Positions 27,388-58,381 of a stretch of 62,051 nt of DNA are shown piece by piece. The notes below the pieces were generated by a model. The model saw nothing but the letters and a program-made list of their open reading frames with translations. It made no database searches and had not been told where the DNA came from. The DNA lies in the IMG/VR virus record IMGVR_UViG_3300030098_005428, positions 1-62,051 of that record; one strand, 5' to 3'. Each line of letters begins with the position of its first letter. Positions within the stretch are counted from its first letter, which is position 1. The stretch is from a virus. The position numbers and the translations under genes are program-made.

Positions 27388-30300
27388 TTATGTAGCTGTA
27401 AATCTAGTTCCATATATATCCCAACCAGTAGATCCAGCAGCACTTTTTGCAGTAACCCTTATGTATGCCCTAGTTGATGTTGAAGATGGTTTGCTGTATT
27501 CTAATGTGGCGTTACCATCATCTTCAAATAAGTATGCGGAAGAATCAGCAGCATCGTGATGTGTTTTTGTATTTGATGTAAACGCAGCGGCGTTAGCGTA
27601 GTAATAACTTGTTAAACCACTTTGACCATCGTGGTTAATACCTTCACCATCTCCATCAGGATCACAAGCATCTCTCCAAGCTGCATTAGTTGTGTCAGGT
27701 GAATTACTAGCTGGACCTGCAATAACAGAATCTGAAATTGTTATTAATGTTGTCCCGTTTGTATCCCATTCTGGCATTGCTGAACCATCTGACTCTTTAG
27801 TAGCATTACCACCTTCCCCAACATACATAAATTTATTCATAGTATGATCTCCAATAGTTTGGGTTCTAAAGTGTCCTCTTTGACCATCAGATGTACCCGC
27901 TGTTCTTAAATGATCACCAATATAGAACGAATCAGCTACAACAGTCATGTCACTTATATTATTTGATGTTTTATTTGTAGAATCAAATAATATTTGAAAT
28001 CTATCTGGTCTTGCTGCGGCATTAACAGAAACTTCAAAAGTTCCAGCACCTGTTGGTAGTGTTATTGGTATTTCATAAACACCATCATTAACAGCAGATG
28101 TTGCTACTGCATCCCCAACTGCTAATTCAAAACCAACAAGTGATTCCCACGCGATACTAAGATAATCATCTTTTGTGCCGTATTTATGAATATTCATTGA
28201 GCCTGTTAATGTTGCTGTTGCAAGAGCAGGTGTATTATTAAGAGCAACTTGCAAGTTATTAAAAGAAACAATACCACCATCTGTCGTTGTAATTTTTTCA
28301 CCAACAAGCTCCCTTACATCACCACCAACAATACTAAGAGGTATAGCTTCACTAATACCATCTCCATCAGTATCTAAAGCATCTAAGAATTTAAAATCTT
28401 TACCAGATGAACTTGAAGTTAAAACAGAACTTATTGTTACCTCATCTGGGACATTAGGTTCTAGTAGTGATCTTTTCTCATAATTTCCACTTGTAGGGCT
28501 AAGTGTAGTTACTGCAGCGGCACTTGATAATCCCTCAGTAACTTCCACGTCTACTATAGCATCTTGGTATTGTATAAATCTCATTTGCTCTGGAGAACTT
28601 AATGGAGAAATAAAAACACTAGTTCCAGTTATTTCTTCTAGTTTTAATGTATATGTTTGTTTTAATGTTGATTCGTCACTCACGTCTTTATCTACAATCT
28701 TAGGAAAATCAAGTAACTCTTCATAATATGCGTTTGTACTTCCAGCAGCAGGTATTTCACCTTCTATGCTACTTACTGTTAATCCATCACTATCCGTTAA
28801 TAAACTAGTGCTATCAGAATCTTTTGTAAGATATATTTTAAATTTAGCACCAGCTTCTCCATACACTTTTAACGACACATCATCCTCACCTTGTTTAGAT
28901 ATTATATTTGGTTTTGCAAATGTATACGTGTCACCAGCTGTAGTGGTTATTGATTCAGATAAAACTACTACTGTACTACTTGTAATGCTATTAATAACAA
29001 CTAGTGAATTTAGTGGAATACCATTTCCAGTTACAGCCATACCCGCATTGAGATTAGCAGTACTAGCAAGTGTTTGTGTAGCACTGGTTGCACCAGTTGC
29101 TATTGTTGTTTCAAATTCCTCATATGATTCAACGTCAATACTCCAACTTGTTATGTTTGTACCTGCTGCTACTTCATTATTTTCAGCTTCAGCAATAAAA
29201 TCTATTCTATCGTTTTCAACACTTCTATTAGGTATTTTGTATGTTATTGCAAATGATTTAGTAGATATATCGCCAGTTGATCCTAAAGCGGGTGTTTCTG
29301 TTACTCTATAATTACTACCAAAATACAATGTATTTTTTAAATCAACACTAGGATGTGAACCTTCTTTAAATATGTGATCTGTAGCAGCTGTGAATGTTGT
29401 TGTTGTAACACCTGCATCGCTAGTATCTAAATCAATTGTTACTGTTTCACCTTCAAGACCTGAAGCAGAATATGCAGCACCAAGTAAATTAGAGGCTGTA
29501 GGTACTGAGGTATTTCTAGCAATAGAGTACCATCTACCAGAAACAGTATATATGTGTTTTGCTTTACCTGTTATCTTTACAACAATTGTTTGATCGTTAG
29601 TTGGCATTGTAAACGATATTGGTACTGTCATAGTAACTTTATTGTCATCAGCGTATGCGCTAGTTGTATTTGCAAAAGCAACACTAGCATCTGTTACGGC
29701 GTTTGTTACCGTAGAACTACTTTCACTAACAAAAGCAAAATCTGCAGCTTTCATAACAGAAGCACCAGCGGTATTTGCATCATTTGGTTCAAATGTAAAA
29801 ATTACATTCTTACTTACAGTTGCACCACCAGCTACATGATAACCATCACTTACAGTATTATCATACGTTGTACCATCAATTGTAAATGATGTAGGTATTG
29901 CAAAAAGATTATCAGAAGTATCATCAGATGAATCCATTTCTACACTTATCTTAACATGATACCCAGCTCTTGATGGACCAGATGATGAACTTAATTCTCC
30001 TATACCTTGTACTTTAAATTCTTTAGCTGCTTGTTTCGTTTCTAAATCTGTAGTTGTAATTCCTGATCCATGTAAATTAGCAAACCACTTACCTTCTTTA
30101 TTTATGAAATAAGGTACATCACCATCTTGTTCACTAGTTGTGAAAGAGTTACAATACCACCCTTCTTTTTCAAGTGTCGTATCTGTTCCAGCTGCATAGC
30201 CCCTTTGAGTAGTCTTGTATAATCTTGATGTAGTACCTTCATAATTTAATGTTTTAAAATTCTTAATTGTTGATGGGGTATCATTAAATATCAATTTAAT

Positions 30301-33300
30301 TGTAGAATCATAACTTGTCCCATAAAATTTATTTCTAAGACTATTTTTATTATGTTCCCAAAGATCACCATTGTAAAAACTATAATATGTATTATTTAAT
30401 GTTAATGCACTTTGTGGTATAAAAGATTTAAAACTTGTCCAACCACCTACTAGTTCAGTATAACTAATAGTATTATTTGATGAACCTATTAGTGTTAAGT
30501 TGTAATTATCTTTCTTATCATCATAACTTCCCAGAATTGTCTTAGGTTGTCTTAGATTGTCAGAAAACCAATCTCGCATGCCTTTATATGCAATATTAGT
30601 TAAACCATCCCTAGATAACCTTAAAACAGCTCCTCGGCGTTTATCAGTAAAATATGCTCTAAAACCATGACTAGCAAATGATTCAGGATTTTCAGATATA
30701 CCGTAATCTCCAACAAAAGGATCACTAGTTCCTAAAACCCTATTACTTGATAATAAGTTTGTGCTGCCATCAGCATTATACAAGGCGTCTTTATTAGCGT
30801 AAACTCTTAAACATTTATCTTCACATAATACTAAAACATCAGAATCTCTTGTGTATAATTTTTGTATACTACCATATTCTGGATTAACATCTTTAGTTAT
30901 TTTTTCTGCTTGTATAAATTGATTTAATCTATTTACTCCAGAAGAAGAATTATATATCCCAGAGTAAATCATTCCACTAGCTCTTCTTTCTTCTGCATAT
31001 TGTTCCGCGAGTGTAGATGAAACCTTAGGACCTTTATCAACAAATATAGCGTTATAATCATCACGTATTCTATTTGATTCAGCCCCATTACCAAATGACC
31101 AGCAATTCATATATTCTATATCATCACCATTGGCATCACCTAAATCTGCTATAGGATATGTTTTACCAGCTTCATAATAAATCTCTAAATCTGGAGATTC
31201 TTTTGGTTCAGTTTCCCATATCGCAGGGCTTTTACTAGAATAAGTTAATTCATTAAAAATTTCTTTTACTATTTCAATTGTTTCAGAAGCACCTCCACTA
31301 TTATCAATTTTCCATCCCATGGTATTCCTATAATTATGTGTACCATATTGATCTATCCTTGGCGCGTTTGGTGATATAGGCGCCCAACCAATATTGTTTT
31401 GTTCAACACCATCTATAGTTGTTTTTAGTGTTAATATCATTTGTAAAGCATGGTTTGAATCATACTTTTTAATCTTATCAGAAAGATTACCATTGTCTTT
31501 TAAGTAATTATAACCTACTCTAGGATAACCATCTACACCATTTTGAGAAACAATTTCATGAATACTACCACTTGGATCACTTTCAAATCTAAATTTTGTT
31601 CCAGTTTGTAATAACTTTAAATATGTATTATACTCGCCATCACTTTTAAAAGCACTTCTTCCTATTGTTGTATTAGGAAGACTTCCATCGTTTCCACCTA
31701 ACCATCTCAATCGAATCATTCTCTTTCCATCAATACCGTTTTTATCAACATTTCCATTACCAAACCAAACTGATTTATCTGTAGTTGGATTTGGTTGAGA
31801 TTTGTTACCACCTTCCCATTTTAATTCTGTCCCTTTCCACTCACCTAAAGAATTTTCATTTTTATAAAACGCAGCATGATCAATACATAGTGTAGCATTA
31901 CCAGCGCCAATACCCGCGTACACCTCTTGTTTTGCTGGTCTAAAACTATATTGATAATCAACTCGTTTCGGATCATCTTCACCCACATCTGATTTTAAGT
32001 AATTAATATAAAATAATCTACACGTGTGTTCAACACCATAAGTTGGATTTTGAACAAAAGATAATAAACTCTTATCTAAATCATTATCTCTTTTAATTTT
32101 AACAAAAAATCTTCCATCAAATTCTTCTAAATCTTCAGTTTCTTCTTTATAAAATTTAGCAGATAATCCAGCAACTTCAACGCCAGCGCTAGTTTTTAAC
32201 ATGTTTACATCACTTCCTAATGGAACTTTTAAATTGAATTTCCAATAACCGTTAGGTGTACTACCTGCACCAACAACTGTACCTTGTGTTGGTGTACCAA
32301 TAGGTTCAATACCAGTTAATTGATACCTTTCTGTTTCCCCGCCAGTTTTAGCTATTCTTATATATAATTCATTAGGATTTTCATCCAAAAAACTTTCTAC
32401 AGGCGTATCTTTAATTGTAGCATAAGGTATATTAATATATAAACCAAGTTCTTCTGGAAATCCATTACCTGTATCAGCTTCTGTTTTACCAAACTGAGTT
32501 GTTAACGTAGTAACTAAATTTTTTCTTTTACGTATTGATTTAGGTGCTTCATTTTTAATATCAAGTATTTTATATTTTAAAGTTTTACCTTTTGTTATTT
32601 CAGGCGCTTCATCAACGTCATGTTTCTTTTTTAATATTAAATATGTTTCTTCATCAATTTTGTTTCTTTCTGCTGACGGAAATGATAACCAAATATGATC
32701 ACCTTCTTGTGTATAAAACCTATCCATAGCTAGATTATAATATTCAAGAGATGGTTCTTTAATAAAATACCTATAATGTGTTGCCCACTCTGGTTTTACT
32801 AAATCTCCTTGTCTGTTGTTTTTTACTTTTACATTTAGTTTATTTGCTGTTTCAGCATAACTTTGATCTAACTTAATAGCACCAGAATCATTTGACAGCA
32901 CAGGGGTTTGTCTAGCAAATTTATCTAAAAACACAATACCAACTTGATAATTTCTAATTGACTTTAATGATTGTGTTGCTGTACTATCTTCTATTTCAGT
33001 TTTACCAACATTTATTACAAAAGACGGTTCTTCTGGTATATTATAGTTTTGTAAATAATTACCATAAATAACTCTATTTTTTGTAATCTCTTGCGCTTTA
33101 GCCATTCTTGGTACATTATCCCAAGGCCTTAATAATTGATTACTAGGAACCAATGCGTGTACTTGTTCTGATGTTATTGAATATCCATCACCACCACTTT
33201 CAACAGAATCCATATCTTCTTTTGTCTTTAAAGTGGTAACAGTATATACACTCGTGTGATTTGATTCTTTATATAATACATCTACCTCAACAACATCTTT

Positions 33301-34566
33301 TGGTCTAACATCAAATGGTATTGTTGTTCCTCCACCAACAGTAACGGTTCTTGCTGTATTTACCATAGATAAGTTATGAGCTTCTACTGGGTTATACTCA
33401 AATCCATTGTCTTGATTTGGTAAAAATGCAACTTTAGAAAATGGTGAAAAACAAGAATATTCACCATCTGCATATTTCCATCTATATCCAAATCTTGGAA
33501 ATTTTAATTCATATATGGGATCTCCTTGTATTAACTCAACTTTCCACGTTAATGATTCTAAGGTTAAATTACTTGAAATCGAAATAACATCACACCAATA
33601 GTTTTTTGAGGTAGCGGTTTCACCAAGTGTATCTCCACTACCAGTATTTGTCGTAGAAACTATTTGTAATGTTGCTGAGTATGTTTCTTGTAAACCAGTA
33701 TCTGTGGTTGATGCTGTTAATTGAACTTTATCTCCTTCTTTAAATATAGGTTTTGAATTTGCAGTAAATGTAATACCAGCAGCTTTACGTATTTGATAAC
33801 CTTTTGGTCTAGGTTCGATTACACTTTCTGAACTAGAAATTGTTCTGGTTTCTGTTAATTCACCTGCTTGTGATACATATGTTGCTGTTGTGGATCTTGT
33901 TTGATCTCTACTAGCGTCTGATGTTTTATACAACGCTATGTCTGGGGCGTTGAGTGGTGATTTTTTTATTGTAGTAATATGTTCTTCTAGTATGTTACCT
34001 TTATCTACACCACTAATAAATAATTTTGTCATTGTAGAATACGAACTAGCACCGGTAGCACAACCTGATTTACAACGTTCTATATTTATTTTTTTAGGTT
34101 CGTTTTTATTATCTGTCCACAATAAAAATGTTGTAGCAGCATTATCTTTATCTTCATCAACTATTAAATTAACCCCAGTAATTAGGTTGTCATTTTTTCT
34201 ATTTAACGCTTCTGTTTGAAAATTTAAAATACCACCTGATGTAGATTTTACATCAACTAAAACTGGTTTAATTTGTTTTGTAATAGTACTATACTCTACA
34301 ATAGCATCAACCGCTGTACCCGCAATAAACCAATAAATTTTATCATTTTTTGTATCAGCTATTGAACCAATACATTTTTGGCCAGTAATACCTAATGTAG
34401 ATATTCTTTCTGTACCCAAAACGTTTTGAGCAGTACCTACATTACCTGTTTCAGACGTGGCTATATCAATGTTTAATGCATCTCTATATTCACCTTTAGG
34501 AAGTAATCTTTCATCAAGATCTTTATTCATTCGACCTGATGTAAAGTTATTTTTTATTTCTGGCAT
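27388..34566 (-). CDS. Giant tail nozzle/stabilisation protein
   Basis: A 2392-residue structural protein. Its start (N-F-T-S-G-R-M-N-K-D-L-D-E-R-L-L, then P-K-G-E-Y-R-D-A-L-N-I) is the typical opening of podovirus nozzle/gp10-type tail proteins. The first ~1400 residues look like the usual nozzle fold; the last ~1000 are Thr/Ser/Ala/Asp-rich and beta-like (repeated T-I-S-S/T-V-T segments), resembling stacked Ig-like adhesion modules. T7 gp12 is only 794 residues, so this is a large extension, probably outward-facing and host-contacting. It is preceded by the tail-connector gene. Confidence 0.75.
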   Translation of the reverse strand: MPEIKNNFTSGRMNKDLDERLLPKGEYRDALNIDIATSETGNVGTAQNVLGTERISTLGITGQKCIGSIADTKNDKIYWFIAGTAVDAIVEYSTITKQIKPVLVDVKSTSGGILNFQTEALNRKNDNLITGVNLIVDEDKDNAATTFLLWTDNKNEPKKINIERCKSGCATGASSYSTMTKLFISGVDKGNILEEHITTIKKSPLNAPDIALYKTSDASRDQTRSTTATYVSQAGELTETRTISSSESVIEPRPKGYQIRKAAGITFTANSKPIFKEGDKVQLTASTTDTGLQETYSATLQIVSTTNTGSGDTLGETATSKNYWCDVISISSNLTLESLTWKVELIQGDPIYELKFPRFGYRWKYADGEYSCFSPFSKVAFLPNQDNGFEYNPVEAHNLSMVNTARTVTVGGGTTIPFDVRPKDVVEVDVLYKESNHTSVYTVTTLKTKEDMDSVESGGDGYSITSEQVHALVPSNQLLRPWDNVPRMAKAQEITKNRVIYGNYLQNYNIPEEPSFVINVGKTEIEDSTATQSLKSIRNYQVGIVFLDKFARQTPVLSNDSGAIKLDQSYAETANKLNVKVKNNRQGDLVKPEWATHYRYFIKEPSLEYYNLAMDRFYTQEGDHIWLSFPSAERNKIDEETYLILKKKHDVDEAPEITKGKTLKYKILDIKNEAPKSIRKRKNLVTTLTTQFGKTEADTGNGFPEELGLYINIPYATIKDTPVESFLDENPNELYIRIAKTGGETERYQLTGIEPIGTPTQGTVVGAGSTPNGYWKFNLKVPLGSDVNMLKTSAGVEVAGLSAKFYKEETEDLEEFDGRFFVKIKRDNDLDKSLLSFVQNPTYGVEHTCRLFYINYLKSDVGEDDPKRVDYQYSFRPAKQEVYAGIGAGNATLCIDHAAFYKNENSLGEWKGTELKWEGGNKSQPNPTTDKSVWFGNGNVDKNGIDGKRMIRLRWLGGNDGSLPNTTIGRSAFKSDGEYNTYLKLLQTGTKFRFESDPSGSIHEIVSQNGVDGYPRVGYNYLKDNGNLSDKIKKYDSNHALQMILTLKTTIDGVEQNNIGWAPISPNAPRIDQYGTHNYRNTMGWKIDNSGGASETIEIVKEIFNELTYSSKSPAIWETEPKESPDLEIYYEAGKTYPIADLGDANGDDIEYMNCWSFGNGAESNRIRDDYNAIFVDKGPKVSSTLAEQYAEERRASGMIYSGIYNSSSGVNRLNQFIQAEKITKDVNPEYGSIQKLYTRDSDVLVLCEDKCLRVYANKDALYNADGSTNLLSSNRVLGTSDPFVGDYGISENPESFASHGFRAYFTDKRRGAVLRLSRDGLTNIAYKGMRDWFSDNLRQPKTILGSYDDKKDNYNLTLIGSSNNTISYTELVGGWTSFKSFIPQSALTLNNTYYSFYNGDLWEHNKNSLRNKFYGTSYDSTIKLIFNDTPSTIKNFKTLNYEGTTSRLYKTTQRGYAAGTDTTLEKEGWYCNSFTTSEQDGDVPYFINKEGKWFANLHGSGITTTDLETKQAAKEFKVQGIGELSSSSGPSRAGYHVKISVEMDSSDDTSDNLFAIPTSFTIDGTTYDNTVSDGYHVAGGATVSKNVIFTFEPNDANTAGASVMKAADFAFVSESSSTVTNAVTDASVAFANTTSAYADDNKVTMTVPISFTMPTNDQTIVVKITGKAKHIYTVSGRWYSIARNTSVPTASNLLGAAYSASGLEGETVTIDLDTSDAGVTTTTFTAATDHIFKEGSHPSVDLKNTLYFGSNYRVTETPALGSTGDISTKSFAITYKIPNRSVENDRIDFIAEAENNEVAAGTNITSWSIDVESYEEFETTIATGATSATQTLASTANLNAGMAVTGNGIPLNSLVVINSITSSTVVVLSESITTTAGDTYTFAKPNIISKQGEDDVSLKVYGEAGAKFKIYLTKDSDSTSLLTDSDGLTVSSIEGEIPAAGSTNAYYEELLDFPKIVDKDVSDESTLKQTYTLKLEEITGTSVFISPLSSPEQMRFIQYQDAIVDVEVTEGLSSAAAVTTLSPTSGNYEKRSLLEPNVPDEVTISSVLTSSSSGKDFKFLDALDTDGDGISEAIPLSIVGGDVRELVGEKITTTDGGIVSFNNLQVALNNTPALATATLTGSMNIHKYGTKDDYLSIAWESLVGFELAVGDAVATSAVNDGVYEIPITLPTGAGTFEVSVNAAARPDRFQILFDSTNKTSNNISDMTVVADSFYIGDHLRTAGTSDGQRGHFRTQTIGDHTMNKFMYVGEGGNATKESDGSAMPEWDTNGTTLITISDSVIAGPASNSPDTTNAAWRDACDPDGDGEGINHDGQSGLTSYYYANAAAFTSNTKTHHDAADSSAYLFEDDGNATLEYSKPSSTSTRAYIRVTAKSAAGSTGWDIYGTRFTAT

Positions 34567-46502: not shown

Positions 46503-47411
46503 TTACTTCTTAACAACTTTCTTTTTTGGCTGAACAATAAACCAGTCCTTGTATACATCACGTTTTTCACAAATATAATCCATATACTTATCTACTTTTT
46601 CTTTCCAATTCTTATCTACCATTGGATTAACAATGCCAGATTTAGGACTAGAAAAACATTTATTTATATAATCTTTTATATGATGTTGATTTGTAAATAA
46701 ATATTTATTAATAGATTCGAAAGATCCTGCTGTTAAAGTATTCCATGTATCAATAGGTTCTATTCTTTTTCCTAAAACAGCCGCGTAAATGGCACTTTCA
46801 CTTATATGTGTTGTATATACCGCTTTAGCTTTTTGTAAATAATAATACATATCAACTTCTCTAGGTAAAATGTTACTTTCACCAAAAAAATCTTTTAACT
46901 CACCAATTATTTGATGTGTTGTTATTGGATGTGGTTTAAAATATACATTATTACCATGTTTCTTAGATATAGCTTTCAATCTATTTAAGCAAACATTAGT
47001 TTTAACTTTATTTGAACCAGGTAAAACAACTAAATAATCTTTAGCTGGCCATTTTTCTATTTCTTCTTTTCTACCCTCATATTTATTTGCTAGCTTTGAC
47101 TGTATGTTATTTACTAAGTATGATGACCAATCATCTGGGTTTTTAACATTATCATCCCAAGCATCCATTAATTGTTCTCCTCTGAGCTTTGAATTTAATG
47201 GTTGAAAGTAAAAATTAGTAGCAAATTCTGTATATCCCATAGTTTTAAAATAAGGCATTTCTTCTGCCATTACATCATAACTAGTTTCTAAAAATCTTTC
47301 ACTACACTTACGTAAGCAATAACCCTCAACTTGTTCTAATTCATCAAGAGCTTTACTTTTTTTAAGTCGTCCTATTCTTTGAGATAAGACCTTTTGATTA
47401 AACATTTCCAT
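46503..47411 (-). CDS. GT-B-like glycosyltransferase, resembling capsule Kdo transferases
   Basis: A 302-residue protein. The centre reads V-Y-F-K-P-H-P-I-T-T-H and later A-K-A-V-Y-T-T-H-I-S-E-S-A-I-Y-A-A-V-L-G-K-R-I, matching the K-P-H-P and late S..E-A-l-l-x-G-k patterns of GT-B capsule transferases (KpsC/KpsS, CDP-glycerol transferase type). KpsC-type enzymes use CMP-Kdo, which this phage can make. It lies directly downstream of the Thr/Ser-repeat proteins on the same transcript, suggesting it may modify them. The sugar is inferred. Confidence 0.55.
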   Translation of the reverse strand: MEMFNQKVLSQRIGRLKKSKALDELEQVEGYCLRKCSERFLETSYDVMAEEMPYFKTMGYTEFATNFYFQPLNSKLRGEQLMDAWDDNVKNPDDWSSYLVNNIQSKLANKYEGRKEEIEKWPAKDYLVVLPGSNKVKTNVCLNRLKAISKKHGNNVYFKPHPITTHQIIGELKDFFGESNILPREVDMYYYLQKAKAVYTTHISESAIYAAVLGKRIEPIDTWNTLTAGSFESINKYLFTNQHHIKDYINKCFSSPKSGIVNPMVDKNWKEKVDKYMDYICEKRDVYKDWFIVQPKKKVVKK

Positions 47412-47470: not shown

Positions 47471-49732
47471 CTATCCAGTAGATCGAATCAAATTTTCTCT
47501 TTCTGTAGAATAATCTGTTCGATAAGTATTGTACCAAGATTTTGTTGTATTATAACTAGTTGTAGTATTATAAGTTGTAACTGTAGCTGTAGTTGTATTA
47601 AATGTTGTGGTTGTACTTTTAGTAGTATTATACGCTGTACTAGTAGATCTAGTTGTTTCATAAGCAGTAGAAAACAAAGTTATGGTATTGGTTGTTGTAT
47701 TAAACGTAGTTGTGGTTGATTTACTAGTTGACCATGTTGTAGCAGTTGCAGTTTGCGTATTGTATGTAGTTGTAGTAGATTTTGATGTTATGGTTGATGT
47801 GTTAAATGTTGTTGTTGTACTAGTTGACGTATTATATGCAGTTGCTGTTGTTTTAGATGTTTCATACGCAGTTGTAGTACTTCTACTTGTCGCCCACGTT
47901 GTTACAAAAATTGTTGTAGTAGCTGTTTGAGTATTAAATGTTGTAGTTGTATTAGTGCTAGTATTGTATGTTGTTGAAGTTGTTTTACTTGTCTCAAACG
48001 TTGTGGTTGTGTTAGTGCTTGTATTGTATGTTGTGTTAAACGCGGTTGTGGTTGCTGTTGTTGTATTAAATACTGTACTTGTAGATTTATTTGTTGCCCA
48101 TGTGGTTGTAGTGGACTTACTAGTTATTGAACTTGTTTCAAATATTGTTGTTCTACTTGTTTCCCATGTGGTGGTATAAACTGTATTTGTTGCTGTTTGT
48201 GTATTGTATACCGTTGTCGTGCTCTTACTAGTGGACCACGTGGTTGTTGTTCCAGTAGAAGTATTAAATGTTGTAGTTGTGTTTGTACTCGTATTATAAG
48301 TTGTACTAGTAGCTTTACTTGTAATAGTTGACGTATTAAACGTAGTGGTTGTAGCTGTTTGTGTATTATACGTAGTTGTAGTATTAGTAGTTGTATTATA
48401 CGTAGTTGTAGTGTTTTTGTTGGTACTCCATGTTGTTGTAGTAGATTTACTTGTTATAGTACTAGTATTAAAAGCAGTTGTTGTGCTTTTACTTGTAGAC
48501 CAAGTTGTAGTGGTTGACTTACTTGTTGATACAACTGTGTTTGTACTTTTACTAGTTGTAGTGGATGTATTAAACACCGTTGTTGTTGCTGTAGAAGTAT
48601 TGTATGTTGTACTAGTTGCTTTTGTGGTATTATAAGTCGTTGTGGTAGATTTACTAGTTGATACAGTTGTGCTTGTACTAGTATTATACGTAGTTGTTGT
48701 TGCAGTTGATGTATTGAATGTAGTAGTAGTTGCCGTGGTAGTATTATATACCGTCGTTGTACTTTTAGATGTAGAAACTACTGTATTTGTACTTCTTGTT
48801 GTAGCTGTTGTTGTGTTAAATGTAGTTGTTGTGCTCTTTGAAGTTGACCACTCAGTAGATGTTGATTTACTAGTACTTACCACCGTTGCAGTTTGTGTGT
48901 TATATGTTGTGGTAGTGGCAGTTGATGTGTTAAATGTAGTTGTTGTAGCGGTTGTTGTATTATAAGCTGTTGATGTAGCTTTTGACGTAGATACAACCGT
49001 GTTAGTACTTTTGCTTGTTACCGTACTGGTATTATATGCTGTTGATGTAGATTTTGATGTAGACCAAGTTGTGGTTGTACTCTTTGTAGTTAATGTACTT
49101 GTGTTATATGTAGTTGTGGTGCTAGTGCTAGTGTTGTAAGCTGTGGTTGTATTAAATGTTGTTGTTGTGTCGTATGTTGTAGTTGTATTTGTGCTGGTAT
49201 TAAAAGTTGTAGTCGTGCCTATTGTAGTTGTGGTTGTTGTATTAAATGTCGTTGTGGTAGCTGTACTAGTATTATAAGCTGTTGCTGTGGTTTTTGATGT
49301 TGATGTACTTCTAGTTGTTGCTGTTGATTTAGTAGTATTGTAAGTTGTAGTTGTATTTATTGTAGTGGTTGTTGAGGTATTAAACGTGGTAGTTCTACTA
49401 GTTGCCCAACTAGTTCCTGTAGAGCGAGAAGTTGATGTTGATCTTGTTGTTTGTTTAGAAGTACTTTGACTTGTTGACCACGTGGTTGTGAAAGTAGTTG
49501 TAGTATTAAATGTTGTTGTGGTACTATGACTAGTTTGCCATGATGTAGTTGTACTTCTACTAGTAGCCCAAGTCGTAGTAGTATTAAACGTTGTAGTTGT
49601 ATTTTGACTTGTAGCATATGTGGTTGATCTACTAGTACCAACAGTATAATTTGTTTGTGGTGTGGTAATTGTAGTACTTGTGTTTCTTGATGTATTTTTT
49701 TGAGTTGATACACAGGTTTGAGTATTAGGCAT
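47471..49732 (-). CDS. Giant Thr/Ser/Asn decapeptide-repeat protein 2
   Basis: A 753-residue low-complexity protein, by eye over 60% Thr+Ser. The unit is 10 residues, [N/S]-T-[S/T]-x-x-T-T-T-x-[F/Y/W/V] (for example N-T-S-T-N-T-T-T-T-F), with some 14-residue units; an aromatic or Val recurs every 10 or 14 positions. The start holds one Cys (M-P-N-T-Q-T-C) and the end is charged (Y-S-T-E-R-E-N-L-I-R-S-T-G). It is near-equal in length to its paralogue at 50829. A beta-type fibre or glycosylated stalk is likely; no enzyme motif exists. A good Shine-Dalgarno precedes it. Confidence 0.75.
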   Translation of the reverse strand: MPNTQTCVSTQKNTSRNTSTTITTPQTNYTVGTSRSTTYATSQNTTTTFNTTTTWATSRSTTTSWQTSHSTTTTFNTTTTFTTTWSTSQSTSKQTTRSTSTSRSTGTSWATSRTTTFNTSTTTTINTTTTYNTTKSTATTRSTSTSKTTATAYNTSTATTTTFNTTTTTTIGTTTTFNTSTNTTTTYDTTTTFNTTTAYNTSTSTTTTYNTSTLTTKSTTTTWSTSKSTSTAYNTSTVTSKSTNTVVSTSKATSTAYNTTTATTTTFNTSTATTTTYNTQTATVVSTSKSTSTEWSTSKSTTTTFNTTTATTRSTNTVVSTSKSTTTVYNTTTATTTTFNTSTATTTTYNTSTSTTVSTSKSTTTTYNTTKATSTTYNTSTATTTVFNTSTTTSKSTNTVVSTSKSTTTTWSTSKSTTTAFNTSTITSKSTTTTWSTNKNTTTTYNTTTNTTTTYNTQTATTTTFNTSTITSKATSTTYNTSTNTTTTFNTSTGTTTTWSTSKSTTTVYNTQTATNTVYTTTWETSRTTIFETSSITSKSTTTTWATNKSTSTVFNTTTATTTAFNTTYNTSTNTTTTFETSKTTSTTYNTSTNTTTTFNTQTATTTIFVTTWATSRSTTTAYETSKTTATAYNTSTSTTTTFNTSTITSKSTTTTYNTQTATATTWSTSKSTTTTFNTTTNTITLFSTAYETTRSTSTAYNTTKSTTTTFNTTTATVTTYNTTTSYNTTKSWYNTYRTDYSTERENLIRSTG

Positions 49733-50810
49733 CTGTAAATCCTCCTTTCTTAATTAAAATATTATTAATAAAATAATTATAATCACTTTGCACGTGGCTA
49801 ATATTATAAGCATTATCATCACTACTATCAAATTCTAATTTTGTTATTTCAACTTCAGTGTTATCCACTCTATATAACTTATCTCCAACCACTAATTCGT
49901 TTACATTCTTCTCAACCCAAGATCCATCGCGCTTTACTACCATGGGTTGATTACCAGATACTATTAGTAAATCATCATTAATTTTCCACATACCATAACA
50001 TACAACACTCCAACAAGTAAGATCACTTCCCGCATATGTTAAAACGGGATTCGCAGGATCTTCACATGTTAATACACTATATGCTTGTCCAGCTTTTTCA
50101 ATTTCAATTTGTCCAACTAATTTTTCTGAATAATGAAGGAGTTTAGACCCATTAACAAAACCAGGTATTTTCTTTAATTCAGGTGTTAAAGTTAAAACTG
50201 GTAACTTCATTGTAGTTTGATTAAAATATGTATTTTCTGGTGGATCAACTGTAATGTTTGTAAATTGAACATCATTTGCCCATGATGTTGGTTCAGTACA
50301 ATCAAAAAGCATAAAGGGATCTGTTGTACCAGCTGTAAAATTCCACCATGTTACCTTACAATTTGGCTTAGCTTTATTTCTAGCAAAATGACGAAATTTA
50401 GTATGTAATAAATCGTCTGCATATGCAAATAGTTGAAATATTGCATCGTAACGAGTATAGTGTTCAGACATTAAAGTCCACCAAGTATCTTCAACAATTC
50501 TAACATTTGATTTACCAACAGCCCAAGCTTTTGCTTTTGTTATCAACTCAGGGTGTGATTCTGTTATAGTATGTGATGCAGGATTTCTTGCTTGAATAGC
50601 ATCAGCTAACATACCCATACCAAAACCACATTCTAAAACATGATCACCAGCCTCGACGCATAGCTCGGCCGCCTTAGTGTGTATCGGTTGTTCCCATGAC
50701 ATTTGAATTTCTCTTGTGTCATTTAAATCCGAAGCCCAAGTAATCTTATCACTAGCAAATGTTAAATTTGCTTCTAAATACGCCTTTCGTCTAACTGCTG
50801 GATCTACCAT
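49725..50810 (-). CDS. SAM methyltransferase-like protein with C-terminal Hint/intein remnant
   Basis: A 361-residue protein. The N-terminal part (W-E-Q-P-I-H-T-K-A-A-E-L, then V-L-E60-C-G-F-G-M-G66) is a Rossmann methyltransferase resembling guanidinoacetate/arginine N-methyltransferases. Residues ~271-361 match the second half of a Hint domain: N-D-D-L-L-I-V-S-G-N-Q-P-M-V-V, L-V-V-G-D-K-L-Y, and F-I-N-N-I-L-I-K-K-G-G. The intein block B His and the final His-Asn are absent, so splicing is unlikely. It sits exactly between the two repeat-protein genes and could be part of the same structure or modify it. Confidence 0.65.
   Translation of the reverse strand: MVDPAVRRKAYLEANLTFASDKITWASDLNDTREIQMSWEQPIHTKAAELCVEAGDHVLECGFGMGMLADAIQARNPASHTITESHPELITKAKAWAVGKSNVRIVEDTWWTLMSEHYTRYDAIFQLFAYADDLLHTKFRHFARNKAKPNCKVTWWNFTAGTTDPFMLFDCTEPTSWANDVQFTNITVDPPENTYFNQTTMKLPVLTLTPELKKIPGFVNGSKLLHYSEKLVGQIEIEKAGQAYSVLTCEDPANPVLTYAGSDLTCWSVVCYGMWKINDDLLIVSGNQPMVVKRDGSWVEKNVNELVVGDKLYRVDNTEVEITKLEFDSSDDNAYNISHVQSDYNYFINNILIKKGGFTDA
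49741..49748 (-). promoter_or_regulatory. Strong Shine-Dalgarno for repeat protein 2
   Basis: AAAGGAGG on the leftward strand, 8 nt before the ATG at 49732. It is encoded by the K-K-G-G codons ending the Hint remnant, where inteins normally have His-Asn. Most other late genes lack such a strong site. Confidence 0.75.
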
Positions 50811-50828
50811 ATTTCTTATATTTACATG

Positions 50829-53081
50829 TTATATACAATTTCTAAAGCATCCACCAAATTGTGTCATCCAACATGAATGATAGTATGTTGTCCATGATGT
50901 ACTAAATGTATATCCTGTGGTGTCTACGTCTAATAAAATTGTAGTATTATAATGTGTTGTTCTTGTTGTATTCCACGATGTTGAAGTGGATCTACTTGTT
51001 GATGTACTTTGTGAAGTATTAAATGTTGTAGTAGTACTCTTACTAGTATTATAATAAGTAGTTGTGCTTTTTGAAGTTGATGTTGATCTTGAAGTAGATG
51101 CACTAGTATTCCATGACGTTGTATACGTGGTTGTAAATGTTGTTGTGGTATTAAACGTTGTAGTTGTATTTTGACTTGTGTTAAATGTTGTTGTTCTTGA
51201 TGTTGCCCAAGTGGTTGTATAGGCAGTTGCGGTTGATTTAGTAGTTTCATATGTTGTTGTGGTATTAAACGTTGTTGTTGTATCATATGTTGTTGTAGTA
51301 TTAGTACTTGTATTATAATTTGTGGTAGTATTTTTGTTAGTTGACCAAGTTGTTGTATAAGCAGTTTGGGTTGTTGTGCTTGTGTTATATGTTGTAGATG
51401 TGGTTTTTGAAGTAGCGGTACTTCTAGTAGTAGCGGTTGCTGTGCTTGTGTTATATGTTGTTGTAGTATTTTTACTAGTTGATTTAGTTGTAGTATATTG
51501 TGTTGTTGTACTTTGTGAAGTATTAAATGTCGTTGTGGTGTTTTTACTAGTTTCCCAAGTAGTTGTATATGCCGTTGTGGTTGCAGTGGTTGTGTTATAT
51601 ACGGTGGTTGTATTTGTCGACGTATTATATGCTGTGTTTGTATTTTTAGAAGTAGACCAAGTTGTTGTAGTAGATTTACTAGTGCTAACAACAGTTGTTG
51701 TAGATGTATTATATGTAGTAGTGGTGTTAGTTGACGTATTAAACGTTGTAGTTGTATTCTTATTAGTAGACCAAGTTGTATTAAAAGTTGTGGTAGTTGC
51801 GGTCTGTGTATTATACGTTGTAGTAGTACTTTTAGATGTACTAGAAGTTTCGTTTGTAGATTTCGATGTAGACCAGGTTGTAGTAGTACTTTTACTCGTT
51901 GAGATTACCGTTGTAGTACTAGTATTATATGTGGTAGTTGTTGATTTACTAGTCTCGTATGTAGTGGTAGTATTAGTACTTGTGTTATAAGTTGTAGTTG
52001 TATTTTTATTAGTACTCCATGTTGTTACATAAGCTGTAGTAGTTGCAGTTTGTGTATTATAAGTTGTGGTAGTAGCTGTACTTGTGTTAAATGTGGTAGT
52101 TGTACTTTTTGACGTTTCCCACGTGGTTGTATATGTTGTGGTAGTAGCTGTCGATGTGTTAAAAGTAGTGGTAGTGCTTGTTGTTGTATTGTAAGCTGTC
52201 GATGTAGCTTTGCTGGTTGATACAACTGTATTTGTTGATTTATTTGTACTCCAAGTTGTTGTATACGCGGTTGTTGTATTAGTTGCAGTATTATATGTGG
52301 TTGTGGTAGCTCTACTGGTAGACACAACAGTGTTAGTTGTTGTACTAGTATTAAATGTTGTTGTTGTAGATTTACTTGTTGAAACTACAGTATTAGTAGA
52401 TTTATTTGTTGTTGTTGATGTATTAAATATTGTAGTTCTACTAGTATTCCATGTTGTAGTATATGTTGTTGTTGTGTTAGTACTAGTATTAAATGTTGTG
52501 GTTGTTGATTTATTTGTACTCCATGTTGTATTTGTTGACTTACTAGTTGTGGTGCTAGTGTTGTATGTTGTAGTGGTAGCTTTAGTTGTATTATATGTAG
52601 TTGTAGTATTTGTAGATGTATTATAAGCAGTACTTGTACTTCTAGTTGTACTAACCACTGTATTTGTAGATCTTTGGGTTGCTGTGCTAGTATTAAAAGC
52701 GGTGGTAGTATTAGTTGACGTATTATACGTAGTAGTAGTATCAGTTGATGTATTGTACGTAGTGGTAGTATTTTTACTTGTAGCCCAACTAGTAGAATAT
52801 GCCGTTGTAGTCGTTGTACTTGTATTAAACGCGGTTGTAGTATTAGTTGATGTATTAAAGGTAGTAGTTGTAGATTTACTAGTTGAAACAACTGTTGCTG
52901 TTGATTTCTGCGTAATAGTACTAGTATTAAAAGTTGTAGTAGTATTAGTTGATGTGTTATATGTTGTGGTAGTAGCCTTATTTGTAGACCAAGTTGTGTT
53001 TGTATTTTTACTTGTGGCTGTTGCTTTTGTTGTTGCTGTTACCCAATTATCTTTCTTTGAAAATCCTAGTAAATTCCTCAT
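50829..53081 (-). CDS. Giant Thr/Ser/Asn decapeptide-repeat protein 1
   Basis: A 750-residue paralogue of the protein at 47471, built from about 70 units of the pattern [N/S]-T-[S/T]-x-x-T-T-T-x-[aromatic/Val], with Lys or Arg appearing in many units (S-T-S-K-S-T-T-T-T-F). The N-terminus (M-R-N-L-L-G-F-S-K-K-D-N-W) and the C-terminus are non-repetitive; the latter has three Cys (C-W-M-T-Q-F-G-G-C-F-R-N-C-I) and may be a trimerisation or attachment tip. No signal peptide, so a virion component is more likely than a secreted one. DNA copies differ at synonymous sites, so the repeat is old and under protein-level selection. Confidence 0.75.
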   Translation of the reverse strand: MRNLLGFSKKDNWVTATTKATATSKNTNTTWSTNKATTTTYNTSTNTTTTFNTSTITQKSTATVVSTSKSTTTTFNTSTNTTTAFNTSTTTTTAYSTSWATSKNTTTTYNTSTDTTTTYNTSTNTTTAFNTSTATQRSTNTVVSTTRSTSTAYNTSTNTTTTYNTTKATTTTYNTSTTTSKSTNTTWSTNKSTTTTFNTSTNTTTTYTTTWNTSRTTIFNTSTTTNKSTNTVVSTSKSTTTTFNTSTTTNTVVSTSRATTTTYNTATNTTTAYTTTWSTNKSTNTVVSTSKATSTAYNTTTSTTTTFNTSTATTTTYTTTWETSKSTTTTFNTSTATTTTYNTQTATTTAYVTTWSTNKNTTTTYNTSTNTTTTYETSKSTTTTYNTSTTTVISTSKSTTTTWSTSKSTNETSSTSKSTTTTYNTQTATTTTFNTTWSTNKNTTTTFNTSTNTTTTYNTSTTTVVSTSKSTTTTWSTSKNTNTAYNTSTNTTTVYNTTTATTTAYTTTWETSKNTTTTFNTSQSTTTQYTTTKSTSKNTTTTYNTSTATATTRSTATSKTTSTTYNTSTTTQTAYTTTWSTNKNTTTNYNTSTNTTTTYDTTTTFNTTTTYETTKSTATAYTTTWATSRTTTFNTSQNTTTTFNTTTTFTTTYTTSWNTSASTSRSTSTSKSTTTYYNTSKSTTTTFNTSQSTSTSRSTSTSWNTTRTTHYNTTILLDVDTTGYTFSTSWTTYYHSCWMTQFGGCFRNCI

Positions 53082-53093
53082 ATCGTTTCATAA

Positions 53094-54923
53094 TTAAGCA
53101 AAGTTACCAACATAATTTACAAGAACTTTATCCGTAGCATGAACGTAATAAGAAATCATAGATATTGCGTTTGCGGTTGTTACAAAATTTACAGTTGCGC
53201 CGTCTGGCGTGAGCATATAACTTGGAAGTGCTACAAAGGACAAAGATCCAACACTTGAAGGATTAACAATTGTAATTGTACCAGATTGACCAACATTTTC
53301 AGATGCTACAGTTAATGCAATTGTTGTGGCTGCATTATTACACGCTATATTAAAGTTATCATTTAAACTTAAATCACAAGTGTGTGTATTACTTGATTCT
53401 GTCGCTGTTGTTATTGTTCTTCTTAAATTTTGCGTACACTTAATACTACCTGTTACATCTACATCACCACCAGCACTAACACCACCAGCAGAAGCTATTT
53501 GTAAATGTCCAGTTGGTGTACCATCACTATCATTTGCCCAAAAGTGTAATGTTTCGCTTGTGTCAAAGGCTATCATCCTTTTACCAGTCCAATCTAAGAA
53601 ACCTGGTTCTGATGTTGCTGTTCCAAAAAATATACCTTGATCGTCATTATTACCTTTTTGTGGAAATAATCTTAAACTACCTATTTGACTTGAATCACCT
53701 CTCCAGTGGCCAATTTCTTTACCGTCTAATGTAAATCCTATTTTAGTTGTATTTGCTTCGTTATTATAATCTGCTGCAATAGCAAGAGATCCAGCGCTAC
53801 TATTAGCTGTTAAATAAGAATCACCATTAGTATCTGAATCTGTAAAGTATAAAGTTGGCGCTACACCTTTTAAATGTAAATGACATTTATTAGGATTATA
53901 TTCAAAACCTCCAGTATCATCATGTAAATTACTAGATTCATCATGAAACACAACTGGATATTCATCGCATGTATCTTTGTCTGCGACTGTAACTTTTGAA
54001 GTTTCGCCTTCTATATTCGCCACTAATGTACCCACCGCATAACCAGTTCCACCTGTATTAACTGTTGTTGTTGGTGCTGCTTGTAAATCTTTAAATAATT
54101 TCCATTTACCTGAATCATTAGCGTCTCTAAATAAACCACTATACAGATCTTGTGATCCACTAGTATCATATAATCCATAAAATCCTATATCTACAGTATC
54201 AGATGAATTGTTACCACTTGCTAATATCATCAATGGATCTTCAACACTTAATGTTGCTGTGTTTACTGTTGTGGTATCACCGTTTACAGTGAGATCACCA
54301 CCTACCGTTAAATTATCGTTTATTGTTGTTTCTGAGGTCGAATGACCAATTGATATAGGTACACCTGAGGTAGCAGTACCTATAGTAATACCATTTGAGG
54401 TATTAGAATTGTCTATGTTAAATGATGTTGTTGCGTCTAATGATATTGTAGTTCCATCAACCGCAAATGTTCCATCAATATCTGTATTATCTAAATTAGT
54501 TGTGCCGTCTACATCTAAATCACCATTAAAATCAGCATTACCGGCTAACGTTAAAGTTGATGCCATATCTACAGCACCGTCTATGTCTACTGCATCTAAA
54601 TTAGAAGTTCCATCCACGTCTAAATCACCATTAAAATCAGCGTTACCAGATAGTGTTAAACCAACAAATGTAGGTGAATCACCCGTACCAATACCTAAAT
54701 CAACTGTATCAGTACCACCATCAACTTCTGTCATAGTTAAGACACCGGTGCTTGTATTAAACGCAATATTATTATATCCTTCTGATCCGTATGTAGAATG
54801 AATAAAATTACCTAATTTTTCTACTGTATAATTTTTCGTTAAAGTACCAGAAACATCAGTACCAATTACTCTATCACCAGCTTCAACGGTTGCATCGGTA
54901 TCATATACACTAAGTCTTGCCAT
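53094..54923 (-). CDS. Tail fibre protein with beta-solenoid-like repeats
   Basis: A 609-residue fibre read from M-A-R-L-S-V-Y at 54923 (a longer reading would overlap the holin by ~30 nt). Residues ~80-180 hold degenerate repeats of the form G-N-A-D-F-N-G-D-L-D-V-D-G-T-x-N-L-D, twice nearly complete, typical of phage fibre shafts. The later part is beta-rich, with no S74 chaperone ending. It precedes the Thr/Ser-repeat proteins in the transcript, so the three may build one adhesion apparatus. Confidence 0.72.
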   Translation of the reverse strand: MARLSVYDTDATVEAGDRVIGTDVSGTLTKNYTVEKLGNFIHSTYGSEGYNNIAFNTSTGVLTMTEVDGGTDTVDLGIGTGDSPTFVGLTLSGNADFNGDLDVDGTSNLDAVDIDGAVDMASTLTLAGNADFNGDLDVDGTTNLDNTDIDGTFAVDGTTISLDATTSFNIDNSNTSNGITIGTATSGVPISIGHSTSETTINDNLTVGGDLTVNGDTTTVNTATLSVEDPLMILASGNNSSDTVDIGFYGLYDTSGSQDLYSGLFRDANDSGKWKLFKDLQAAPTTTVNTGGTGYAVGTLVANIEGETSKVTVADKDTCDEYPVVFHDESSNLHDDTGGFEYNPNKCHLHLKGVAPTLYFTDSDTNGDSYLTANSSAGSLAIAADYNNEANTTKIGFTLDGKEIGHWRGDSSQIGSLRLFPQKGNNDDQGIFFGTATSEPGFLDWTGKRMIAFDTSETLHFWANDSDGTPTGHLQIASAGGVSAGGDVDVTGSIKCTQNLRRTITTATESSNTHTCDLSLNDNFNIACNNAATTIALTVASENVGQSGTITIVNPSSVGSLSFVALPSYMLTPDGATVNFVTTANAISMISYYVHATDKVLVNYVGNFA

Positions 54924-54924
54924 G

Positions 54925-55332
54925 TCATTTCTTTTTAAATTGATTAAACTTTTCAACGCTTCGTCCGCCGAAATAGGCCCCGATGGTAGTCATTAAAACT
55001 AACTGAAGTAAATCTGTCCATTTTTGCTCAACGTTGAATGTTATTGAACCACTATCAATAAACACCATGATTACAGTAGATATAATTAAAAAGATTAAAA
55101 CCAGTGGACGTACTGATCTTGTTAAAAAGTTACCATGTTCTAGATCTGCTTTCCATCTATCGGTAACATTTTTCTGCATTGCTGCCTCAGCATCAAGAAA
55201 AATTTGTTCCATATCTTTTTGAAACGCTCTCTTCTCATCGCCTGTTGTTATAAATTTATCGGCGACGCCGGATAGTTTTTGTAATACACTACCTCCGGCA
55301 TTGCCAAATATTTTTCCTAAAATTTTACTCAT
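54925..55332 (-). CDS. Holin-like membrane protein (GTA 3TM holin type)
   Basis: A 135-residue protein similar in layout to the 3TM holin family of gene-transfer agents: amphipathic N-terminal half, W-K-A-D-L-E near the middle, T-R-S-V-R-P-L-V-L-I-F-L-I-I-S-T-V-I-M-V-F as the first clear span, then L-L-Q-L-V-L-M-T-T-I-G-A-Y-F-G-G and a basic tail. Holins time lysis by opening the inner membrane to endolysin. It is far from the endolysin (12905) but on the same long transcript. Confidence 0.7.
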   Translation of the reverse strand: MSKILGKIFGNAGGSVLQKLSGVADKFITTGDEKRAFQKDMEQIFLDAEAAMQKNVTDRWKADLEHGNFLTRSVRPLVLIFLIISTVIMVFIDSGSITFNVEQKWTDLLQLVLMTTIGAYFGGRSVEKFNQFKKK

Positions 55333-56553: not shown

Positions 56554-56811
56554 TTAGTCTATTAACACCACATCACCGACTTTGATGACATAGTATAATA
56601 TTTCTTTATGTTGTATACTGTGACCAGCGTGCTTATCATAATATACAACATCATTTTCTTTTATGCCTTCCACTAAATTACCTATACTGAATACTTTAGC
56701 TTTAACGTATCTATTATCTTCATCTACGTTATCCATAATATCTAAACCAGCTATTTTCTTTGGTTTTTCCTTTATGTTTTCTACTACAAGATAATAATTA
56801 ACTGCTTTCAT
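56554..56811 (-). CDS. groES: Co-chaperonin GroES-like protein
   Basis: An 85-residue Cpn10. The barrel pattern V-E-N-I-K-E-K-P-K-K, a mobile-loop-like I-A-G-L-D-I-M-D, the V-K-A-K-V-F-S-I-G-N strand, N-D-V-V-Y-Y-D-K and the final Y-V-I-K-V-G-D-V-V-L-I-D are visible. It is about 10 residues shorter than bacterial GroES. It overlaps groEL by 14 nt and follows it on the transcript, so the pair is made together to fold capsid or other virion proteins. Confidence 0.82.
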   Translation of the reverse strand: MKAVNYYLVVENIKEKPKKIAGLDIMDNVDEDNRYVKAKVFSIGNLVEGIKENDVVYYDKHAGHSIQHKEILYYVIKVGDVVLID

Positions 56812-58381
56812 TCTTATTAACTCTTACGTTAGAAATAACACAATCTGCTGAGATAATAGTGTTTACTACACTCACAGCATTTTGTAATGCAGTTTTTGTA
56901 ACTAAGACGGGGTCTACGATTCCAGCTTTAACCATGTCGACTTGATTACCAGAGATTACATTAAAACCAACACCTTTAGTGGTAGGTGTTTCGTAGTTTT
57001 CAATACCAGCATTTTCCATAATAGTTTTAAATGGAGATTTTATGGACTTTACTAATATTTTCTCCCCCATATTTTTGGGTTTTATATTACTAGCCGCATT
57101 TAATAAAGCTATTCCACCACCAGGTACAATACCTTCTTTTAATGCTGCTTTAGTAGCGTAAATTGCATCTTCAACCCTATCTTTTTTTTCTTTCAATTCT
57201 ACTTTAGAATGTGCACCCACTTTAATCATCCCCACAGATCCGGATAACATGCCTAATCTTTCTTCTATCTTACTTTTAATAAAAGTATTTCCTTCTTTTT
57301 TAATTGCTTTTTTAACTTCTTTAATCCTATCTTGTAATTCTTTCACATTTTTATCAACTGTTAATACAGTATGTGAATCATCTGTTACTGCTGTTTTAGC
57401 ATAACCAAGTACATCTGGTTGTATTAAATCCAAATCATCACCTAATTCTTCATTTAATACTTTTGCTCCTGTTAATATACCTAAATCTTCCATGGTATCT
57501 TTTTTGGTTGGACCAAAGCCAGGTGGATCAATAATATTAATTTCAATATTACCTTTTACTTTATTCATTAATAATGCGGATTTTGCTTGTTGTTCTATAT
57601 CCGCTATAATTAATAAACTTCTTCTATTCTTTATAACATATTCAAGTATGTTTTGTATTTTCCTTACACTAGGTATTTTAGAATCTACAATAAGAACACA
57701 TGGTTCTTCAAGAACAGATCTATTTTTATCTTTATCGGTTACAAAATGAGGTGAAGTTAATCCTGATTCGAATTTTACTCCATCTACTATATCAGCATAC
57801 GTTTCACCAGTATCTGATTCTTCCATTAATACTACACCATCTTTACCTACTTTTTCGTAAGCTTCTGATATAATTTTTCCAAGCTCGTTATCGTTATTGC
57901 AAGATATTGAGCTGACGTGTTCCAAAAGATCTCCTTCAACTTTAATACTGGTTTTATCAAGATATTTCTTAATTTTTGCCAAACCTGAATTAATGCCTTC
58001 TTTGATTTCTCTAATAGAACACTTATTTTCTTTAATATTTTTCTCATTCAATACATTTTTTAATAATGCTTCTGCTAGTACGATTGCTGTTGTTGTACCA
58101 TCACCTGCTTCTTTTACTGTTTTTTGAGATGCTTCTTTGATTAATGTCGCTCCCATGTTTTCAACCGGATCATATAAGACAACCGATTCAGCTACGGTTA
58201 CACCGTCTTTTGTAATCACCGGTTTGCCCATGGCATCTTCGTATATTACGCATTTACCAGAGGCACCTAGGGTGGATTTGACTGCCTCAGCAAGTTTATC
58301 CACACCTAAAATTATCCTCTTTTTAGCATTGTCGCTAAAATTTAAATCTTTAACGATTTGACTAGGGTTATTATATTCCAT
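56798..58381 (-). CDS. groEL: Chaperonin GroEL, phage-encoded
   Basis: A 527-residue group I chaperonin. The nucleotide motif G93-D-G-T-T-T-A99, the T-L-G-A-S-G-K start region and the later V-P-G-G-G-I-A-L-L motif are intact, so it should hydrolyse ATP. The E. coli-like G-G-M repeat tail is missing; it ends K-N-E-S-S. Phage GroELs assist folding of phage proteins such as the capsid. With the GroES partner and possibly a second Cpn10-like protein (45383), the phage looks self-sufficient in chaperonins. Confidence 0.93.
   Translation of the reverse strand: MEYNNPSQIVKDLNFSDNAKKRIILGVDKLAEAVKSTLGASGKCVIYEDAMGKPVITKDGVTVAESVVLYDPVENMGATLIKEASQKTVKEAGDGTTTAIVLAEALLKNVLNEKNIKENKCSIREIKEGINSGLAKIKKYLDKTSIKVEGDLLEHVSSISCNNDNELGKIISEAYEKVGKDGVVLMEESDTGETYADIVDGVKFESGLTSPHFVTDKDKNRSVLEEPCVLIVDSKIPSVRKIQNILEYVIKNRRSLLIIADIEQQAKSALLMNKVKGNIEINIIDPPGFGPTKKDTMEDLGILTGAKVLNEELGDDLDLIQPDVLGYAKTAVTDDSHTVLTVDKNVKELQDRIKEVKKAIKKEGNTFIKSKIEERLGMLSGSVGMIKVGAHSKVELKEKKDRVEDAIYATKAALKEGIVPGGGIALLNAASNIKPKNMGEKILVKSIKSPFKTIMENAGIENYETPTTKGVGFNVISGNQVDMVKAGIVDPVLVTKTALQNAVSVVNTIISADCVISNVRVNKNESS

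Follow-up and report, generated by a model that had tools for sequence, protein, structure and literature searches.

Mirror-image Thr-rich repeat proteins as proposed antiparallel partner chains of one long phage fibre

The stretch of DNA considered here, a single virus record of 62,051 bases referred to below in its entirety as the window, encodes two large Thr-rich repeat proteins of nearly identical length, designated A and B, and the question raised by this locus is what such a closely matched pair might build. We consider it probable that A and B run antiparallel to each other as partners within a single long fibre of the phage. The computed features on which this reading draws are a mirrored register between the two chains, their co-varying length, compensating indels at mirrored positions, even indel sizes, the order of the genes, and the predicted glycosyltransferase fold and adjacency of a neighbouring protein.

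A minus-strand cassette of two Thr-rich repeat chains

All genes of the cassette are located on the minus strand and follow each other, in the direction of transcription, as a 620-aa protein (53094..54956), protein A (750 aa; 50829..53081), a middle gene M (361 aa; 49725..50810), protein B (753 aa; 47471..49732), a 302-aa protein directly downstream of B (46503..47411), four small genes and TerL. The last 8 bp of M coincide with the first 8 bp of B. Protein A starts with MRNLLGFSKKDNW and ends with HSCWMTQFGGCFRNCI, while B starts with MPNTQT and ends with RENLIRSTG. The preliminary description of this locus, as two ORFs of 753 and 750 aa flanking a methyltransferase/Hint gene, was confirmed, both ORFs being found at the stated position on the minus strand. 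The 620-aa protein, given its weak match to the phage structural family phrog_697, is treated as a neighbour gene of the cassette, and no place in the fibre is claimed for it.

The TerL and portal proteins of the window match phage families, with the TerLs of Flavobacterium, Cellulophaga, Tenacibaculum and Maribacter phages being the kin of its TerL. The Thr-rich pair was not found in the genome stretches examined of isolated TerL relatives (elemo phages, phi46:3 and Gundel_1) or of the closest assembled genome, MW202828. Neither A nor B matched a Pfam or PHROG family or, by sequence, a solved structure, and searches of the open-access literature returned no description of the pair.

Both proteins consist of 48-49% Thr and 14-15% Ser, and are nearly devoid of His (two residues in A and one in B). 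Autocorrelation of the aromatic and aliphatic anchor residues, run as a check of the repeat period, bore out the earlier observation of anchors at every ten, sometimes 14, residues, with a signal at lag 10 (r 0.39 and 0.40 for the two proteins) as well as at lags 20, 24 and 34. Units of exactly ten residues number 42 in each protein, the main other lengths being 4, 6, 8 and 14. Beneath this decapeptide lies a strict dipeptide parity: for Asn/Ser, all even lags tested gave a positive autocorrelation and all odd lags a negative one. Of the two faces of the chain, one has a Thr content of 61% and bears almost all of the aromatic and Lys/Arg residues, the other being made up of Thr, Ser and Asn. 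Extended beta strands show this two-residue alternation, and both chains may accordingly be predicted to adopt such a structure.

At the DNA level, the unit NTSTNTTTTY of A occurs in five different encodings, which are 80% identical where 79% is expected from random synonymous choice, while the commonest recurring unit of B shows 86% identity versus 80% expected. Given these varied synonymous codons, the repeats do not stem from recent slippage, and the earlier suggestion that they are maintained by selection at the protein level is supported. Gene conversion was likewise considered, but finds no support in the codons of the two genes, which are close to synonymous-random.

Length, register and indels across related cassettes

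Relatives of the cassette were reached through M, through peptides of A itself and through the gene of the 302-aa protein, the last of which, used as bait in IMG/VR, yielded 80 loci. In complete A-M-B cassettes the two chains measure, for example, 750/753, 1203/1210, 1667/1661 and 576/577 aa (A/B), most cassettes encoding chains of about 500-1,667 aa each. Some have an A that is approximately 150 aa longer than B (963/814 and 1304/1139), and this excess is made up of non-repeat domains. When only the repeat regions are compared, the lengths of A and B correlate with r = 0.9987 and a slope of 0.99 over a span of 251-1,630 aa (31 cassettes, leaving out L016, whose A is frameshifted). Apart from this frameshift, the apparent exceptions in length are explained by a globular domain in B (L023 and L074) or by a tip domain without S74 (L080). 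The same pattern is observed in L104 (NHFY01000092; A/B 932/780 aa), an 11.7-kb contig that carries the full cassette together with TerL and was binned into the Flavobacteriales MAG TMED123, which is a weak hint of a Flavobacteriales host; phages with the cassette probably infect marine Flavobacteriia.

A reversed relationship between the two chains becomes apparent when A is read from N- to C-terminus against B read from C- to N-terminus: the anchors then coincide ungapped over the whole length, with a z score of 14.7 in the window, and of 18.0 and 18.2 in the related loci L003 and L008, against nulls of 4-5. When the unit order of B was reshuffled 1,000 times and 60 offsets were searched, z reached at most 8.3. 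In the window, 44 of the 74 aromatic residues of A lie opposite an aromatic residue of B, compared to an expectation of 6.8 (hypergeometric 3e-33 for this offset), and while such single-offset and single-genome statistics ignore relatedness, the window alone already gives the register. The register offset is about -10 to -20 residues in nearly all genomes, and in 29 of 32 related cassettes the cognate partner is the top-scoring one, with a mean score of 9.6 for cognate versus 2.9 +/- 1.6 for non-cognate pairs; when A is paired with the B of another genome the signal is lost, except among close relatives. Residue pairs counted over 22 cassettes include 777 aromatic-aromatic pairs versus 132 expected and, at shift +2, 415 pairs of Lys/Arg with Lys/Arg versus 68 expected. 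A gapped alignment in a reduced alphabet had given mixed parallel and antiparallel signals, and it was the ungapped test that decided for the antiparallel orientation.

Periodic strings correlate at many offsets, and a wide offset search gives self-antiparallel scores of up to 9.4 for A and 8.2 for B of the window, and 14.4 for B of L046, so that the mirrored register might be suspected to be a statistical effect of the periodicity and low complexity of these sequences. The unit-shuffled and non-cognate controls, the constant offset across genomes and the independent evidence from indels and length speak against such an artefact, to which we assign a negligible probability. RNA pairing and DNA inversion were dismissed as sources of the mirror by reasoning, a reversed amino-acid order not being a reverse complement. 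Since neither duplication nor inversion of DNA can reverse the order of amino acids, the mirror symmetry does not derive from gene duplication, and with no DNA route available, selection for antiparallel contact is therefore its natural cause.

Matching of aromatic residues over all cassettes is equally good at shift 0 (mean r 0.42) and shift -10 (0.41), and drops to 0.13 at shift +10. Either two B strands, ten residues apart, border each A strand, or the aromatics are staggered by half a unit, and this tie leaves the exact physical register two-valued, which constrains modelling. Some divergent relatives (L065, L069, L082 and L086) show a weak register, and alignment ambiguity or a looser rule may account for weak or unmatched registers. 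Furthermore, in a group of about six relatives typified by L031, the correlations in parallel orientation equal those in antiparallel orientation, albeit at large offsets; this parallel similarity reflects internal or ancestral duplication, which thus also contributes to the sequences as they stand.

The indels that separate related cassettes provide a second line of evidence. Among 83 indels in A, 24 are accompanied by an indel of the same size in B within ten residues of the mirrored position, where 1.6 such matches are expected at random positions and a single one was found at the parallel position, these counts being derived from 18 genome comparisons that share genomes and are thus not independent. 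Among close relatives, for example, L063 and L046 differ by +14 at position 682 in both A and B, while both chains exhibit changes of -10, -10, -82 and +12 between L063 and L041, of +12 and +12 between L082 and L086, and of +80, -20, +20 and -12 between L079 and L009. In more divergent comparisons most A indels lack an exact match in B, partly due to ambiguous gap placement in repeats.

These data bear directly on the possibility that the two proteins are paralogues, similar through gene duplication, that fold independently into homo-oligomeric fibres, e.g., two types of tail fibre, and owe their equal length to the same span. The shared composition and unit types, as well as the clear parallel similarity seen in relatives such as L031, L046 and L048, would be in line with this explanation, yet it accounts neither for the reversed register nor for same-size indels that are found at mirrored rather than parallel positions (24 versus 1), nor for a globular domain that occupies the same axial position whether it is borne by A or by B (see below), and we therefore regard it as unlikely. 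The preliminary description had proposed paralogous fibre or stalk proteins. Its assignment to a fibre or stalk is upheld indirectly, by S74 domains in relatives, the neighbourhood of virion genes and the adjacent glycosyltransferase, whereas paralogy explains the equal length less well than partner chains do: what stands out in the window is the relation of A to reversed B, and indels are compensated at mirrored positions.

Indel sizes are even in 74 of 83 cases in A and in 81 of 85 cases in B, while only 22 and 27, respectively, are multiples of ten, the others often being 12, 14, 22, 36 or 82. This preference for even sizes that are often not multiples of ten argues for a strand parity in both chains, as opposed to the 10-residue beta-solenoid that had initially been suggested. 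The strong 10-residue aromatic period and the alternating Thr would suit an arrangement with A and B as separate stalks, each folded by itself into a beta-solenoid or triple beta-helix with ten residues per coil; the even indel sizes, however, do not, and the mirrored co-evolution would be left unexplained. An AlphaFold prediction of A alone, based on an alignment of seven orthologues, returned neither a fold nor a solenoid (pLDDT 27), which is weak evidence in itself: such a failure is expected if A needs its partner, but is equally uninformative. Separate solenoids are thus not supported and appear quite improbable.

Fibre ends and neighbouring enzymes

A domain search detected no Peptidase_S74 in A of the window, which ends in GGCFRNCI, while A of L009 carries a C-terminal Peptidase_S74 domain with a Pfam match above the curated cut-off. 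In this S74 group A ends in a domain of ~75 aa followed by an S74 chaperone-like C-terminus, and the remaining members of the group exhibit, as judged by eye, the same SDxRLKxxI-type motif or a conserved C-terminus. As the window's own A has no S74, we infer its identity as a fibre protein from these relatives. In another group, a globular domain of ~155 aa is located 88-115 residues before the C-terminus of A, while in L023 and L074 a globular domain of ~180-200 aa is instead located 69-89 residues after the N-terminus of B. If the chains are antiparallel, the same axial place is decorated whichever chain bears the domain. Homology between the A-borne and B-borne domains is at most suggested by hhalign (probability 41, P 3e-4), and hmmsearch returned no match between them.

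The 302-aa protein has a confidently predicted GT-B fold (pLDDT 86). Foldseek matched it to a Kdo transferase-CMP complex (9yfx; E 1.1e-4, prob 1.0), to TagF and to UDP-GlcNAc 2-epimerases, among many GT-B matches with an overall TM of about 0.3, from which the GT-B class of the model is clear and the substrate is not readable. A Thr-rich ORF ends just upstream of this gene in 72 of the 72 loci with enough upstream sequence, an adjacency which suggests that the 302-aa protein is a candidate fibre glycosyltransferase and that the fibre would be coated with sugar.

In the Caulobacter phages Lullwater, BL198 and Cr30 and the Vibrio phages KVP40 and VS2, a short alternating Thr-rich protein is encoded a little upstream of a distant homologue of this glycosyltransferase, while homologues in three other Vibrio phages have no Thr-rich neighbour. 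These short proteins measure about 116-217 aa and are single, with no partner gene. In a test for self-hairpin symmetry of the Thr-rich proteins of all five phages, only that of VS2 scored slightly above its 95% null. The association of a GT-B gene with a short Thr-rich protein recurs in L091, L092, L093, L099 and L100, which represent T7-like Caulobacter phages and Cr30, and KVP40-like Vibrio phages, suggesting that this pairing may be a general module for the modification of Thr-rich fibres.

The ever-present GT-B gene, the near 50% Thr content and the absence of a predicted fold for A alone would equally befit a disordered, heavily O-glycosylated mucin-like stalk or capsid coat without defined pairing. 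A disordered chain, however, would not be expected to keep a strict parity of even and odd positions, to hold its aromatics in register for 740 residues or to show matched indels, which makes this explanation very improbable. Glycosylation by itself also fits antiparallel partner chains, and mucin-like glycosylation of A and B is thus possible under that arrangement.

M encodes a guanidinoacetate N-methyltransferase (GAMT)-like domain followed by a Hint/intein-like domain. The former spans about residues 37-204 (50199..50702, minus strand; profile positions 35-200), contains the motif VLECGFGMG and matches the SAM domain of GAMT 3orh with a profile value of 8e-17. The Hint-like region covers about residues 270-356 (49743..50003, minus strand), as delimited by alignment and by the match of the C-terminal part of M to intein 9hth (3.9e-5). 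In the window, the TxxH position of this region reads SGNQ, there is no terminal His-Asn and the protein ends in KKGGFTDA, so that its Hint domain is probably inactive. The motif TGNHPM is retained in several relatives (L016, L017 and L022 were compared) where the window has SGNQPM. In the S74 group, i.e., L009 (6949-7518) and 14 relatives, the middle slot is occupied, in place of the GAMT-like/Hint protein, by a different protein of ~187 aa that exhibits weak similarity to methyltransferases (PDB 3dtn, E 0.016; Spermine_synth, 0.025). A GAMT-like homologue is also present in the 635-kb jumbo phage LR745206 (L094:12001-12576), directly downstream of three long Ser/Thr-enriched ORFs of 1075, 1169 and 762 aa, and this type of enzyme may thus serve other fibres too.

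Proposed architecture and comparison with known fibres

In the proposed fibre, A and B would lie side by side as extended beta strands, antiparallel over their whole length, with each aromatic-bounded unit of A opposite a defined unit of B. The N-terminus of A and the C-terminus of B would meet at one end, presumably that which binds the virion, while the C-terminus of A and the N-terminus of B would meet at the tip. A would thus represent the outgoing strand and B the back strand, as separate proteins. Several A:B pairs, three if S74 homology is taken as a guide and thus perhaps A3B3, could associate into a thin six-stranded antiparallel needle by analogy to T4 gp37, as if the hairpin of a gp37-type needle had been split into two genes and the needle made enormously longer. 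At ~0.33 nm per residue, the fibre would measure ~240 nm in the window and ~540 nm in its longest relative. In relatives, a globular domain would be located at the tip, joined in one group by an S74 trimerisation chaperone that cleaves itself. Glycosylation of the Thr/Ser arrays would probably be the task of the adjacent GT-B enzyme, and the methyltransferase encoded by the middle gene may modify the fibre or its glycan.

The tip of the T4 long tail fibre, formed by gp37, is a six-stranded antiparallel beta needle (PMC9659904, PMC7291167, PMC3004832) of about 150 Å, in which one chain turns back at the tip and histidines bind iron (PMC6957217). The out-and-back antiparallel strands in a thin needle and the tip domain at the turn would be common to gp37 and the proposed fibre, for which antiparallel pairing is predicted from sequence register and indels. 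Unlike gp37, which is a single polypeptide with iron-binding His residues, A and B are encoded by two ORFs on either side of M and are Thr-rich, with almost no His. Tail fibres with an S74 chaperone share this domain with A of relatives such as L009, and we know of no S74 fibre with a length-matched mirror partner. The Caulobacter and Vibrio phage pairs resemble the cassette in combining a Thr-rich protein with a GT homologue, but consist of a single short protein with no partner. Serine-rich repeat glycoprotein adhesins are bacterial surface proteins with dedicated glycosyltransferases; a Ser/Thr array with an adjacent glycosyltransferase gene is common to both systems, while the glycosyltransferase families differ and the adhesins have no antiparallel partner. 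Freshwater glycofibrils (CryoSeek II, cited in PMC12967142) are reported to be environmental fibrils in which sugars coat linear peptide repeats, as would be the case in the fibre proposed here, with tetrapeptides in place of the units of A and B.

To our knowledge, no other separately encoded pair of proteins is known in which the two are mirror images in register, with compensating indels over hundreds of residues. Whether the pair typifies a new class of filament is, in our estimation, evenly balanced; in such a class mirror-image proteins would pair antiparallel like a protein duplex, with paired indels in two genes setting the length and a dedicated enzyme adding a coat of glycans, to form marine phage fibres hundreds of nm long. 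By function, i.e., phage adhesion, this would be a variant of a tail fibre, and it is the architecture that appears to be new. The co-change of A and B, readable from sequence alone, would parallel at the level of proteins the compensatory changes that occur between the strands of a duplex molecule. If correct, it would constitute a new principle for building and tuning fibres of great length (about 250 to 1,630 residues within one family) and a simple repeat code that is testable for filament design, while the short Thr-rich Caulobacter and Vibrio proteins would be simpler relatives, and the fibre a candidate source for glycan-coated fibrils seen in water.

Elsewhere in the window, two giant ORFs of 2858 aa (15564-24140) and 2392 aa (27388-34566) are located in the structural/ejection region. 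A phage-encoded GroEL-like protein (56798-58381) is found near the fibre cassette, and GroEL/GroES are also encoded by related Flavobacterium and Manatee Spring phages.
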